Shown piece by piece: positions 1,865-28,687 of a stretch of DNA of 40,400 nt. A program made the position numbers and the translations under genes. This DNA comes from a virus: positions 1 through 40,400 of IMG/VR virus record IMGVR_UViG_3300030419_000990. One strand, given 5' to 3'. The notes below the pieces were generated by a model that was not told the DNA's origin, searched no databases, and was given only the letters and a program-made list of their open reading frames with translations. How positions within the stretch are numbered: the stretch's first letter is position 1; each line of letters starts with the position of its first letter.

Positions 1865-2461
1865 ATGGCAAGTTTTAAATTGACACAGGGTATATCTCGT
1901 GTCCCTGAAGATGTCTTTGTCGAAGATGGCATGACTGTAACTTCAGGAGGTTTAACAGTTACTGCTGGTGGTGTTACAGTTACTGCAGGAACAACTACTC
2001 TTGGAGGATCACTTGTTCGTGATCTTGTAACGCTTACTGCAGATACTACTATTACACAAGCAGATCATGCAGGACGTATTTTGCTTATGGGTGAAGTAGG
2101 CGGTGATGCTTCTGCTACCTTTACTCTTCCAGCAGCTACTGGCTCTGGTGATGAATACAAATTTATTGTATCTGTTGTCAATACCTCTAACTATGTAATT
2201 AAAGTTGCAGACGCTACTGATACCATTGATGGTTCAGTGGTTGTGACAAATGATAGTTCAGCAGGTGGTACAGCTTCGTTAATCTCATGGCCTACTGTAG
2301 CTGCTTCAGATACTATTACACTTGATGGTACAACTACTGGTGGTGCTCAAATAGGAGATTATGTTCTCTTAACAGATATTGCTACAAACCAGTATACAGT
2401 TAGTGGATTGCTTAATGCATCTGGAACTGAAGCTACACCATTTAGTGCTACTGTATCCTAA
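1865..2461 (+). CDS. Beta-rich structural protein, second copy of a tandem pair
   Basis: This 198-residue paralogue of the preceding gene differs mainly at the N-terminus. Residues about 20-50 hold a three-step repeat (VTSGGLTV, VTAGGVTV, VTAGTTTL) typical of trimeric fibre shafts or beta-solenoids. The rest follows the shared core with LMGEVGGDA and ATDTIDG. The short shaft plus shared head suggests a small fibre or spike. The stop codon overlaps the ATG of the Cys-rich peptide by one base (TAATG), so the two are probably translated together. Confidence 0.6.
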   Translation: MASFKLTQGISRVPEDVFVEDGMTVTSGGLTVTAGGVTVTAGTTTLGGSLVRDLVTLTADTTITQADHAGRILLMGEVGGDASATFTLPAATGSGDEYKFIVSVVNTSNYVIKVADATDTIDGSVVVTNDSSAGGTASLISWPTVAASDTITLDGTTTGGAQIGDYVLLTDIATNQYTVSGLLNASGTEATPFSATVS

Positions 2462-2580
2462 TGAACGATAATAACGCTGTTGCTGCAAAATGCGGTAATA
2501 AAAATTGCAAATGTGAGGATTGTAAATGTTCTCAAGAGGATTCTTGTGACTGTAAAGAAGGGTCAAATGAATGGCGATAA
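2461..2580 (+). CDS. Metallothionein-like 39-residue Cys-rich peptide
   Basis: The ATG at 2461 overlaps the stop of the gene before (TAATG) and the reading frame ends at 2580, ten bases into the next gene. The 39 residues contain seven cysteines at 11, 16, 18, 21, 23, 29 and 31, giving C-x4-C-x-C-x2-C-x-C-x5-C-x-C, with Lys, Asp and Glu between and no aromatic residue except Trp38. Repeated C-x-C motifs in a tiny soluble peptide are the signature of metallothioneins, which bind Zn, Cd or Cu as thiolate clusters. Its place inside the late structural operon suggests it is made with virion parts. It could be a virion component, a metal buffer during late infection, or a disulfide-stabilised peptide. 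Metal binding is inferred, not shown. Confidence 0.7.
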   Translation: MNDNNAVAAKCGNKNCKCEDCKCSQEDSCDCKEGSNEWR

Positions 2581-2912
2581 GACTAAAAAATGCAGCAGCA
2601 GCATTATCTAGTACTAACCTTACTTCAATATATACTTGTCCTTCTAATTTTACAGCAAGAATAAAAGAAGCATGGGTAACAAATGTAGATGGATCAAGTG
2701 CAGCTAACATAACTTTAAAATGGACAGATACTTCTGCAAGTGCTACGTATGATTTACTTAGCACTTTTAGCGTAGCTGCAGATAATTATTTACAACTTTC
2801 TGATACAAATATTATATTAGAAGCAGGAGATATTTTTAAAGCACAAGCTTCTGCTGCAGATGATCTTACTGTATCTTTATTTATTGAAGAAGAACTTAAT
2901 GTTACAGGATAA
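2571..2912 (+). CDS. Small putative structural protein
   Basis: The 113-residue beta-rich protein begins MAIRLKNAAAALSS and carries IYTCPSNFTARI, a pattern I associate with small phage proteins encoded near tail genes. No enzyme motif is visible. The start lies inside the end of the metallothionein-like gene in another frame, so expression is probably coupled. A decoration or tail-accessory role is likely by position. Confidence 0.6.
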   Translation: MAIRLKNAAAALSSTNLTSIYTCPSNFTARIKEAWVTNVDGSSAANITLKWTDTSASATYDLLSTFSVAADNYLQLSDTNIILEAGDIFKAQASAADDLTVSLFIEEELNVTG

Positions 2913-10905: not shown

Positions 10906-12993
10906 ATGGTAGGTTATAATCAAGATAGATTGACAGAAAAAGCGAGAGAGCTTGGTTATGCAGGAGATATGAAGAATTTTCCAGCATTTCTAGAGCAAAA
11001 TCCTATGTTAGCACAAAGGTATCTTCAAGAGCAAGAACAACTTAAATTTCAAACAGGGGGCTTTGTTCCTAATATAGAACAACAATCAACTCCAGCAGGA
11101 CAAAAGTTTACATTTAATAATCAAGTTTTTGATAGTCTTGCACAAGCACAAACTGCTCAAAATACATTTGTACAACAGCAACAGCCTCAACAACCTTCGC
11201 CAACTGTTACTAGTGAACCAACTGTTGCAGAAACTCCTGTTCAACAAGCACCAACTACTGTAAGTCCTGCAGAAGAGGTATTAGCAACTACACAACAAAG
11301 AGTTTTAAATCCTGCTCTACCTGTAGGTACTCAATTTCAAGCAGCAACAACTCCATTTGAACAGGCACAAACTATTGACCCAACTACAGGACAGGTTGTA
11401 GGAGATTTAAGTGTCGCACAAGCTTCTCAAGTTACTCCTGCTCAAACTCAATTACCCACTGCTACACAAGCTGCACAAGTAACGGCTGCTCAAGCTGCAC
11501 CTGCTGTAGCTCAAGCTGGAGCACAAGCACAACAACTTGCTGCACCTACACAAACTATAGAAGCTCAACAACAAGCACAGACACAAGTAGCTAATCTACA
11601 AGCTGCTCAACAAGCTCAAGCTACACAAGTTCAAGCACCTGCTGATAGAGCATTGCAAGCAGCAGAACAAATTTCTGGACCTGATCAACAGGCAGTACAA
11701 GCTGCAGCATTTATAGAACCTTCTGTACAAGCTGCTCAAGCTAATCCAAGTTTAGCTGCTACCGTTCAAGGACAATTAGCAATACTATCTGAACAATTTG
11801 CACAAGGAGAAGTACCTTTTTGGGCTTCAGGTGCTGTACGTGCAGCTACAGAAAAACTTTCACAAAGAGGGTTAGGTGCAAGTAGCATGGCAGGACAAGC
11901 TATTGTGCAAGCTGCTTTAGAGGCTGCCTTACCAATAGCTCAAGCAGATGCAAGAACAGTAGCTGCTTTTGAAGCACAAAATTTGACAAATAGACAACAA
12001 TCTGCTATGATTACAGGACAGTATCGAGCACAGTTTTTAAACCAAGAATTTGATCAAGCATTTCAAACTCGTGTAAGAAATGCAGCTATTGTATCAGATA
12101 TTGCAAATAGAAACTTTACTGCAGACCAACAAATAGCTTTAGAAAATGCAAAGTTTGCACAAACTGTAGATTTATCTAATCTAAGTAATGATCAAGCTCT
12201 TGTAATGGCAAACGCTGCAGCATTAGCTAATCTTGATATTTCTAATTTAAACAATAGACAACAATCTGCTGTACAAAATGCACAAAACTTTTTGCAGTTA
12301 GATATGTCTAATTTAAGTAATGCACAACAAGCTGCTGTATTAAATTCACAACAACAGGTGCAAAGTCTTTTAACAGATGCTGCAGCAGAAAATACTGCAA
12401 GACAAATTAATGCTACTAATCAACAACAAACAGATCAGTTTTTTGCTAATCTTATTTCCACCATAGGACAACAAAATACAGCACAAGCTAATGCCACAAA
12501 TCAATTTAATGCAGGACAAGTAAATGCTTTAAATAGATTTAATTCAGAACTAGCTAATCAAAGAGATCAATTTAATGCACGTAATCAATTAGCAATTCAG
12601 CAAAGTAATGCAATATGGCGTAGAGAAATTGCTACTGCAGATACAGCAGCGTTAAACTTTCAAAACCAATTTAATGCTCAGAACTTACTTGATCTTAGTA
12701 ATGAATCATATGACAATCTTTGGCAAGAGTATAGAGATGTTTTAGAATTTGCTTTTACTGGAGCACAAAATGAGGCAGATAGATTAAACCTTCTTCAACT
12801 TGCATCAATTAATAATAAAGCCGCATTAGATCTTAGAGAATTTGCAGAGGATAGACAAGATGTAAGGGCTATTGGAGGATTTCTTGATAATGTATTTGGT
12901 GGTGCTCTTCAAAATGTAGCTTCAGAGGCTTTAGGTGGTGTAGGTACATCAATAGCTAGTGGTGTAGGAGGCTTTCTCAAAGAATTATTTTAA
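10906..12993 (+). CDS. Gln/Ala-rich putative internal (ejection) protein
   Basis: The 695-residue protein is strongly enriched in Gln, Ala and Asn. Residues about 60-270 are low-complexity Ala-Gln-Thr-Val sequence, probably disordered or a long helix. Residues about 350-560 are a chain of helical repeats, clearest as three 22-residue units beginning DLSNLSN, DISNLNN and DMSNLSN, with QQ or DQ at the same place. The C-terminus (about 665-695) has a hydrophobic Gly-rich segment (LGGVGTSIASGVGGF), able to touch a membrane. Long helical, membrane-active proteins of this kind form the internal core or ejection channel of podoviruses (functional analogues of T7 gp14-16). That role is inferred from composition and from the two large proteins downstream. 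Confidence 0.55.
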   Translation: MVGYNQDRLTEKARELGYAGDMKNFPAFLEQNPMLAQRYLQEQEQLKFQTGGFVPNIEQQSTPAGQKFTFNNQVFDSLAQAQTAQNTFVQQQQPQQPSPTVTSEPTVAETPVQQAPTTVSPAEEVLATTQQRVLNPALPVGTQFQAATTPFEQAQTIDPTTGQVVGDLSVAQASQVTPAQTQLPTATQAAQVTAAQAAPAVAQAGAQAQQLAAPTQTIEAQQQAQTQVANLQAAQQAQATQVQAPADRALQAAEQISGPDQQAVQAAAFIEPSVQAAQANPSLAATVQGQLAILSEQFAQGEVPFWASGAVRAATEKLSQRGLGASSMAGQAIVQAALEAALPIAQADARTVAAFEAQNLTNRQQSAMITGQYRAQFLNQEFDQAFQTRVRNAAIVSDIANRNFTADQQIALENAKFAQTVDLSNLSNDQALVMANAAALANLDISNLNNRQQSAVQNAQNFLQLDMSNLSNAQQAAVLNSQQQVQSLLTDAAAENTARQINATNQQQTDQFFANLISTIGQQNTAQANATNQFNAGQVNALNRFNSELANQRDQFNARNQLAIQQSNAIWRREIATADTAALNFQNQFNAQNLLDLSNESYDNLWQEYRDVLEFAFTGAQNEADRLNLLQLASINNKAALDLREFAEDRQDVRAIGGFLDNVFGGALQNVASEALGGVGTSIASGVGGFLKELF

Positions 12994-26617: not shown

Positions 26618-26645
26618 ATTATACACTAAAATAAAAATTTGTCAA
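26618..26645 (-). promoter_or_regulatory. Sigma70-type promoter before the SSB-like gene
   Basis: On the minus strand TTGACA (26645-26640) and TATAAT (26623-26618) are both perfect consensus hexamers, spaced 16 bases. The leader of about 30 bases ends with AAAGGA before the ATG at 26584. The promoter overlaps the end of the polymerase gene by four bases. It would drive the SSB-like protein, the nucleases and the RNR group using host RNA polymerase. Confidence 0.85.
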
Positions 26646-28687
26646 CGATATTCTACTACTTCCATCCAATTATCTCCTATCTTACATTCCATAGACAAAG
26701 GGACATCAAACTGCATTGCAAATTTTAAATTTAATACAGTCTGTAGCTTCTTTTCTACCCTTTGTATACAGCTTTTTACCCTTTCTTCTTCGTTAGGGTA
26801 TACATCAATAACTACACTATCATGTACACTGTTTACAATCATACTTCTAAGCACATCCTTCTGTAATTCCTCTTCTACCAGCAGTAACGTCATTTGCACA
26901 ATGTCTGTAGATACAGATTGCACAGGGTAATTCTTTACAGCAGTAAAGTATGTAATGCCCCCATTGCTCCTACGTTTAGCATTAGGAAAAGCGAACTGTC
27001 TTCCTGTAGGAGTCGTTACCATACCAGTAGACATAACTTCATTGGCTAAATCTGTGTGCCAAGCACCTATGCCATCATATTTTTTTATGAATTGCTTGTA
27101 GTATGTTTCCTCTGCAGTAGTTTTTCCATACCCTGTAGCACCAAACAATGGAGCGAAGGTATGTTCTTTAGCTTCTTGTCTAGAAGTTTGTTGTCCTGCA
27201 TCTGATATTACCTTGGCAGTATAACTATGAACATCAAAACCAGTATTTATTTCATCTTTGGCTATGTTGTCCTGCCCTAAAAAAGCAGCCGTTCTAAACT
27301 CAAGTTGAGCAAAGTCTGCCTCTATAATTTTTCCACCTTTCCAACGTGACTTAAAAACTTTTTTAATTGGAAAAGTATTTCCCCTTGGCATATTTTGTAA
27401 GTTAGGAGAATCAGAAGCTAACCTTCCTGTTGATGTTCTATGTTGCACTAATCTAACGTGCAACTTACCGTCATTCTTCATATAAGTTTCTATGCCATCC
27501 ACAAAAGAAGATAGATAGGTATCTAATGCAGATAATCTACGAACTTTATGTAAAAAGTCTTGTGCTTTAGTCATGTTTCTACGTTTAGCTACCGTTTCCA
27601 GAAGCTCTAGATTTGTTTTACTTGTACTAAAGCCATGATTAGATACCCAACTTGCAGTTGGAGCAGAGAATTTAAGTCCTGCTATACGTTTTTGGGGTAA
27701 ATATAAAATGCCTTTAGCATCACATACTTTACATAATCGTTTTGCTTTTCCTATAGTGCCATCTTTCTTTCTAACTAAATTAAATCCTTTACCAAAACAA
27801 TCAGAGCACTGTATCGCCTTTGTTTTATACACAAGACTACTCTTGTTTCTAACCTCTTTATCAAAATCTTTTTTCTGCATATACTTTGGAAAGCATGAAG
27901 ACCAATTAGATTTGTCGTTAGGTTTTCTACTGTATATTAACATACTCAATTGTTCTGGAGAGGATAGATTTATAGGTGTATCTCCCATTAACTCTATCAC
28001 TTGAGCATTTAAGCTTTGCTGTATATCAGCTTGCTCTTTTTTGAATTGCTTTTTAACTATGTTTAGAGCTTCCTTGTCTACCGAGAAGCCCCTTGAATAT
28101 ATCTTAGCTAACAATACGCATAGCTCATTTGTAAGTAATGTTATAGGTTCTAAAGAAGAATATTCTTTTGTATATAATTTTTTTCTTAACCTATCTGCCA
28201 ACTCCTGTGTAGCTTTTACGTCAGCTAAACAATATTCTTCTAGCTCATCTCCATCTATATTATCCACAGATATTCCAGCTTTGAGTTGCTCCTTCATTAA
28301 ATCCATCTTTTGGTTTTCAAGATCGTATCTTTCTGCTATAGCCTGTAGAGACAAGGGTTGTTTCTGTGCTCTTTGAAATAAATATTCTACTAACATGGTA
28401 TCAAAAACTGGTTTATCGTATTTAAATCCACAGTCCCACAACCACGTTAATTCATGTTGTGCATTATGGCAAATTATAACAGCAGCCTCATCAAGTTGAG
28501 ATTGAAGTTTTTCCTTTGCGTTCTCAGTACTGTGGGTGCTATGATTAAACCAAAAAGAAGACTCCTCCCCTGTATCTTTCTTTGTACATACAAGAACAAG
28601 TTTATTATCTGGTGTGAATGGATCAAGTAATATTTTACCAGATGGTAAACGAGTAATTGTATTCTCTATATCCACTGTAAGTTTCAT
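26642..28687 (-). CDS. Family A DNA polymerase with 3'-5' exonuclease and DnaJ-like zinc insert
   Basis: This is the replicative T7-like polymerase, 681 residues. The exonuclease domain has Asp6/Glu8 (VDIENT), HNAQHEL (74-80) and Tyr152/Asp156 (EYCLADVKA). Polymerase motif A is DFAQLEFR (458-465), motif B is RQEAKEHTFAPLFG (503-516), and motif C is VHDSVVID (621-628). Between the exonuclease and palm, residues 294-329 carry CSDCFGKGF and CKVCDAKGI (Cys294, 297, 319, 322), half of a DnaJ central zinc domain. I know this insert from phage HMO-2011. Phe511 aligns with E. coli Phe762, a residue associated with virulent phages in marine surveys. Motif C has Ser where most family members have Glu (HDS, not HDE). 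Confidence 0.93.
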   Translation of the reverse strand: MKLTVDIENTITRLPSGKILLDPFTPDNKLVLVCTKKDTGEESSFWFNHSTHSTENAKEKLQSQLDEAAVIICHNAQHELTWLWDCGFKYDKPVFDTMLVEYLFQRAQKQPLSLQAIAERYDLENQKMDLMKEQLKAGISVDNIDGDELEEYCLADVKATQELADRLRKKLYTKEYSSLEPITLLTNELCVLLAKIYSRGFSVDKEALNIVKKQFKKEQADIQQSLNAQVIELMGDTPINLSSPEQLSMLIYSRKPNDKSNWSSCFPKYMQKKDFDKEVRNKSSLVYKTKAIQCSDCFGKGFNLVRKKDGTIGKAKRLCKVCDAKGILYLPQKRIAGLKFSAPTASWVSNHGFSTSKTNLELLETVAKRRNMTKAQDFLHKVRRLSALDTYLSSFVDGIETYMKNDGKLHVRLVQHRTSTGRLASDSPNLQNMPRGNTFPIKKVFKSRWKGGKIIEADFAQLEFRTAAFLGQDNIAKDEINTGFDVHSYTAKVISDAGQQTSRQEAKEHTFAPLFGATGYGKTTAEETYYKQFIKKYDGIGAWHTDLANEVMSTGMVTTPTGRQFAFPNAKRRSNGGITYFTAVKNYPVQSVSTDIVQMTLLLVEEELQKDVLRSMIVNSVHDSVVIDVYPNEEERVKSCIQRVEKKLQTVLNLKFAMQFDVPLSMECKIGDNWMEVVEYR

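Follow-up and report, generated by a model that had tools for sequence, protein, structure and literature searches.

The ORF at 2461–2580 is probably a real phage gene that encodes a micro-metallothionein, a peptide that would be made late and would bind thiophilic metal. Based on its sequence and that of its relatives, we put the probability of this reading at about 0.77. The window analyzed here is a 40.4-kb virus record (positions 1–40,400 of IMGVR_UViG_3300030419_000990), and we consider it to derive from an HMO-2011-type phage, as its DNA polymerase is nearest to those of Roseobacter phages CRP-345 and CRP-1 and Puniceispirillum phage HMO-2011 (53–56% identity). That polymerase has a DnaJ-type Cys-rich insertion, which we take to be a hallmark of HMO-2011 (Table 1). 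The genes around the ORF form a tail/structural module, based on their PHROG matches, among them tail protein and virion structural protein. The upstream neighbor adjoins another gene (1341–1826) with a similar protein sequence, apparently the result of a tandem duplication. The modeled fold of the downstream neighbor resembles phage tail-needle knobs and cement proteins, among others.

Table 1. Features of the window discussed in the text.
Feature	Position	Strand	Remarks
Upstream neighbor, 198 aa, Gly/Ala/Thr-rich	1865..2461	+	No Pfam or PHROG match
TAATG stop/start overlap with upstream gene	2459..2463	+	From the sequence; arrangement also in most relatives
Micro-metallothionein-like ORF, 39 aa, 7 Cys	2461..2580	+	ATG start; stop at 2578-2580
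Cys module C11-C31, C-x4-C-x-C-x2-C-x-C-x5-C-x-C	2491..2553	+	Common to other viral and bacterial peptides
AGAAGGG, likely Shine-Dalgarno of downstream gene (ATG 2571)	2556..2562	+	Inside the K-E-G codons of the peptide
Downstream neighbor, 113 aa, all-beta, phrog_1276 (function unknown)	2571..2912	+	AlphaFold2 pLDDT 89
Family A DNA polymerase with DnaJ-type Cys-rich insertion	26642-28687	-	Insertion is a weak DnaJ-like match

The product of the ORF, MNDNNAVAAKCGNKNCKCEDCKCSQEDSCDCKEGSNEWR, has Cys at residues 11, 16, 18, 21, 23, 29, and 31. These account for 18% of its 39 residues, above the ~15% Cys that, together with a low mass, characterizes metallothioneins. Aromatic residues are absent from the Cys module, and the one Trp (position 38) sits in the tail, within the overlap with the next gene. 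A sequence-only reading of this DNA had described a 39-residue frame with seven Cys overlapping both neighbors, and we confirmed this arrangement: the start codon shares the TAATG with the upstream stop, and the frame overlaps the downstream ATG (2571) by 10 nt. Inspection of the sequence revealed no evident Shine-Dalgarno proper to the ORF and, because of this and the TAATG overlap, we infer that the peptide would be translated by termination-reinitiation off the upstream gene. The sequence that probably acts as the downstream Shine-Dalgarno lies within the peptide's codons, and GAAGG/AAGGG is retained among the variants found at the same slot in related phages (described below). The conservation of E33-G34 may reflect that signal, and these two residues were excluded from the evidence for the peptide because of this overlap.

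Cysteine is scarce in the rest of the structural module, where the other main proteins have 7 Cys in 6,353 residues (0.11%), versus 7 in 39 in this peptide. In dinucleotide shuffles of 2431–2620, a sense ORF of at least 30 aa with at least seven Cys arose in 14 of 20,000 sequences, and in only 1 of 20,000 when at least three C-x-C were also required; 60 shuffles of the whole window produced zero ORFs of this kind. Among ORFs of the real window with an ATG start, this is the only one to pass the Cys/C-x-C filter. A looser filter yields Cys-rich antisense frames (e.g., 44 aa with nine Cys and a TTG start, opposite a Gln/Ala-rich gene at 11452–11586 on the minus strand), and for this reason the Cys pattern alone is no proof, whereas its conservation is. 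That the ORF arose by chance is ruled out by its conserved frame and Cys, by selection on its Cys codons and by the shuffles. An antisense gene opposite the ORF was rejected because the reverse-strand frame that was translated contains a stop; a longer minus-strand ORF (2369–2764), read in a different frame, extends across the site. An RNA element was likewise rejected, as the window has no Rfam match and the folding energy is ordinary (z = -0.9), so that RNA folding does not explain the conservation of the ORF.

Using the downstream protein as query, we obtained 47 IMG/VR loci. The peptide was present in all 19 loci (L002–L018, L042, L043) with a downstream protein at least 87% identical and with upstream sequence, and also in L054, where the downstream protein is 80.5% identical. 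These 20 contigs encode, at the same slot, ten distinct variants besides that of the window, with lengths of 30–44 aa and 6–10 Cys (15–23%). Their cores differ in length by a single in-frame module of 15 nt, a five-residue C-x-C unit that has been gained or lost. Across the variants C11, C16, C18, and C31 are invariant, and C23 and C29 nearly so. The sequence-only reading had proposed a check of the seven Cys in relatives, naming loss of the frame, loss of the Cys and a dN/dS near one as outcomes that would count against it. The frame and the Cys core are retained in all ten variants and none of those outcomes was observed, yet individual Cys have been lost, with C to Y occurring three times and one C-x-C module coming and going. 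In L012 and L015–L018, the genes matching ~1031–2460 are absent, and a peptide with a shorter N-terminus still follows the preceding gene in an open frame.

Relatives with a downstream protein at 73–82% identity (L019–L041) lack the Cys-rich peptide; what occupies their slot is a basic peptide (MPLTKKGKKIKASMKK...) or else a short leader that includes the inverted repeat TGCTCA...TGAGCA. Because of this alternative content, genes seem to be exchanged at the slot between the homologs of 1865–2461 and 2571–2912. The isolates HMO-2011, CRP-345, CRP-1, and HTVC008M were scanned in part and had no similar ORF in the stretches covered, only chance Cys-rich frames. Searches of an annotated phage collection by tblastn, run with low-complexity filtering that may mask such a peptide, gave no credible match.

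To describe selection on the slot peptides, substitutions were counted by parsimony on a tree built from the downstream region. The Cys codons had 12 inferred events, eight of them synonymous (TGC/TGT) and four replacements (three C to Y, one W/C), where 74–88% replacement is expected under neutrality. The corresponding omega is ~0.07–0.17 (p = 1e-5 to 3e-3 for kappa 1–6). In the remaining codons omega is 0.6–1.0, nearly neutral, and the pooled pN/pS of the peptide is 0.42. The Cys columns are under purifying selection, and the non-Cys codons are nearly unconstrained.

Similar peptides are also encoded by other viruses. DNA patterns built on the motif matched 19, at least 120, and 19 viral stretches, and at least 147 loci were retrieved, with a few low-complexity false matches in the raw list. 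Among the matches listed, 119 loci had a Met-initiated ORF of no more than 62 aa with at least 13% Cys; ~8 of these were from the slot of the window, and ~110 were small Cys-rich ORFs of 19–62 aa in other viral contigs. Again among the matches listed, 107 of 114 upstream neighbors and 88 of 96 downstream ones shared the strand of the ORF, at median gaps of 26 and 39 nt, respectively. We consider the matches to be genes because they are small open frames, mostly on the strand of the adjoining phage genes and fitting into the intervals between them, and many are preceded by a Shine-Dalgarno-like stretch (identified with a simple pattern). Examples are MCNNPECKCENCTCDPCECSSENPCGCEVDDEQVAPV, MCNNENCKCENCNCESCECSEESPCGCE, and MCNNPNCKCEDCKCGECNCEDCTSDTCQCK. 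The family consensus, MCNNPxCxCENCTCxPCxCxxENPCGC, partly mirrors our search patterns, as such searches select for the motif.

The neighbors of the viral members include genes of tail assembly chaperone, PAAR, baseplate, head closure, portal, and PhoH families, and also of ribonucleotide reductase (nrdB-type) and NifU-like families, and this variety indicates that several phage groups carry the peptides. In two phage contigs (L162:4430-5627 and L166:2395-3458) the ORF is a few hundred bases from a gene for a NifU/IscU-type Fe-S scaffold. In two viral contigs (L252, L296) the form is longer and seems to carry a signal peptide (MKKKIILITLSAVAALHFGLVATGTCLNPKCTCDPCRC...), which suggests an exported version. 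One viral match (L139) was discarded as a Cys-rich stretch within a larger, different protein. In an alignment of viral members that included the window peptide, C2, N4, C7, C9, C12, C14, and C25 were invariant, and the window peptide has the C-x-N-x-x-C-x-C-x2-C-x-C core and C-terminal C-x-C that define the family. Its seven-Cys form looks like the nine-Cys form of the family minus one five-residue C-x-C module. A profile built from members outside the slot scored the HMO-type slot peptides above Cys-preserving shuffles (0–8 of 500 reached the score). Eight viral members tested had zero Pfam or PHROG matches.

When bacterial genomes were scanned with the alignment of the peptides, the single match was in an alphaproteobacterial MAG (L130), which encodes MSKCNNPNCKCENCQCGDNCQCGKECRCGENCTCGKDCKCTKEKKCNPKCKCGKK. 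That gene is followed by one for a PF02583 metal-sensitive repressor (E = 9e-27), whose nearest NCBIfam model, below its cut-off, is RicR. A profile of such proteins (42–61 aa, ~11–19 Cys) matched 74 of 153 genomes of the same alphaproteobacterial order. A CsoR-family frame was nearby in 22 of the 25 loci examined (L130–L136, L140–L158), mostly just downstream on the same strand, a count based on a sequence motif, the L130 copy being the one compared with Pfam. At L135, a predicted cation-efflux-like protein is encoded downstream. The bacterial proteins have no Pfam or NCBIfam match above cut-off, and the best solved match of their profile is a weak one to the cadmium-metallothionein 6qk5 (E = 4e-4).

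The window peptide and one bacterial protein have 13 identities over 23 aligned columns. When the bacterial profile was applied to ten slot peptides, they mostly scored above Cys-preserving shuffles (0–5 of 500 reached the score), the exception being L002 (27 of 500, default scoring); since the slot peptides are kin to one another, these are not ten independent tests. A viral profile that included the slot members found the bacterial protein at E = 2e-4, and a narrow phage profile failed to reach the bacterial proteins. The viral and bacterial peptides are likely homologous based on these sequence comparisons, a link that is suggestive because short Cys-rich sequences align easily. No gene for a metal-sensing repressor was seen beside the phage ORF, and a plasmid search returned no similar peptide.

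The interpretation proposed from the sequence is supported in part. Its metallothionein-like character is borne out by the conserved frame and Cys, by the many similar viral peptides, and by the look-alikes that bacteria encode beside CsoR-type repressors; that the peptide might buffer metal in late infection, deliver it, or be packaged is a conjecture. Curated models do not speak for a metallothionein: the window peptide had no Pfam match at E <= 1, no curated metallothionein model matched, and NCBIfam returned only an unrelated sub-threshold match. Also against a micro-metallothionein are the number of Cys, which is not fixed (6–10), and the C-terminal conservation, which overlaps the downstream ribosome-binding site. 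We hypothesize that the apo-peptide is short and mostly unstructured, and that its clustered C-x-C thiolates would enclose a few thiophilic metal ions as a small cluster. The peptide would be translated from late structural mRNA, coupled to the upstream gene, and may buffer Cu(I), Zn(II), or Cd(II) lost by host proteins in the infected cell; alternatively, it could be a metal reserve for the phage's own zinc-using enzymes. The bacterial look-alikes beside a CsoR-type repressor point to candidate metals, of which copper is our first guess by analogy with the RicR-like neighbor, with Zn or Cd also candidates.

It is unlikely that the product, instead of buffering metal, is a small structural peptide of the zinc-knuckle or cross-link type that binds zinc or forms disulfides and is assembled together with virion proteins. 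Such a role would fit the location of the ORF in the tail module and the many other viral members that adjoin structural genes, but the core has no His ligands, the number of C-x-C modules varies, and AlphaFold2 returned no fold for the peptide (pLDDT 51). Members are also found near nrdB-, NifU-, and PhoH-type genes, so a virion role is not general. Clearly less probable is that the frame is retained mainly for translation, as a coupling spacer with the downstream Shine-Dalgarno, and that the Cys are incidental. The conserved GAAGG/AAGGG and overlapping start, and the almost free evolution of non-Cys codons, are what a spacer would predict; however, the constraint falls on the Cys codons, the slot of relatives lacking the peptide is filled by a plain leader or something else, and unrelated phages encode similar peptides, many of which have a Shine-Dalgarno-like stretch of their own.

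We give slightly less credence still to a redox or host-directed peptide, either a thiol buffer or one that takes metal away from a regulator or metalloprotein of the host, for which metal binding would be the means and not the end. The viral relatives next to a NifU/IscU-type scaffold (L162, L166) and the association of the bacterial look-alikes with metal regulators are consistent with this, but there is no direct evidence for a target, and the NifU association has come up in a single phage group.

A broader reading is that several unrelated phage groups share a common, unannotated metallothionein family of 19–62 residues, exchanged with or drawn from CsoR-regulated bacterial ones, which would control free copper or zinc in infection or carry metal in the virion. 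We consider this an even bet. Such a family, widespread, made up of very small proteins and absent from Pfam and PHROGs, would turn metal handling into an aspect of phage infection that can be tested. Our literature search, limited to open-access full text, found no description of a phage-encoded metallothionein.

In metallothioneins, which are textbook metal-binding proteins, d10 metals are bound by thiolates grouped in C-x-C motifs, with nine Cys enough for three divalent ions. Like metallothioneins generally (e.g., Pfam Metallothio_5, PF02067, and 6qk5), the phage peptide is very small and Cys-rich (up to ~37% Cys in its viral relatives), has repeated C-x-C and has no predicted fold in the absence of metal; the bacterial look-alikes match these proteins weakly. 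The phage members differ in their size (19–62 aa), in being phage-encoded, and in having no Pfam metallothionein model match, and the one Trp of the window peptide is unusual. The likeness to SmtA/BmtA-type proteins (PF02069) and MymT is that of bacterial-type intracellular metal-thiolate peptides, although the phage peptide has no PF02069 match and, unlike the SmtA/BmtA type, no His in its Cys core. Its Cys spacing presumably differs from that of both. Mycobacterial MymT is tied to a CsoR-family copper repressor. The CsoR-linked alphaproteobacterial proteins have an N-terminal C-N-N-P-x-C-x-C-E-N-C-x-C with the same spacing as in the phage peptide, and differ from it in being longer (42–61 aa), in having ~11–19 Cys and in having a repressor nearby.
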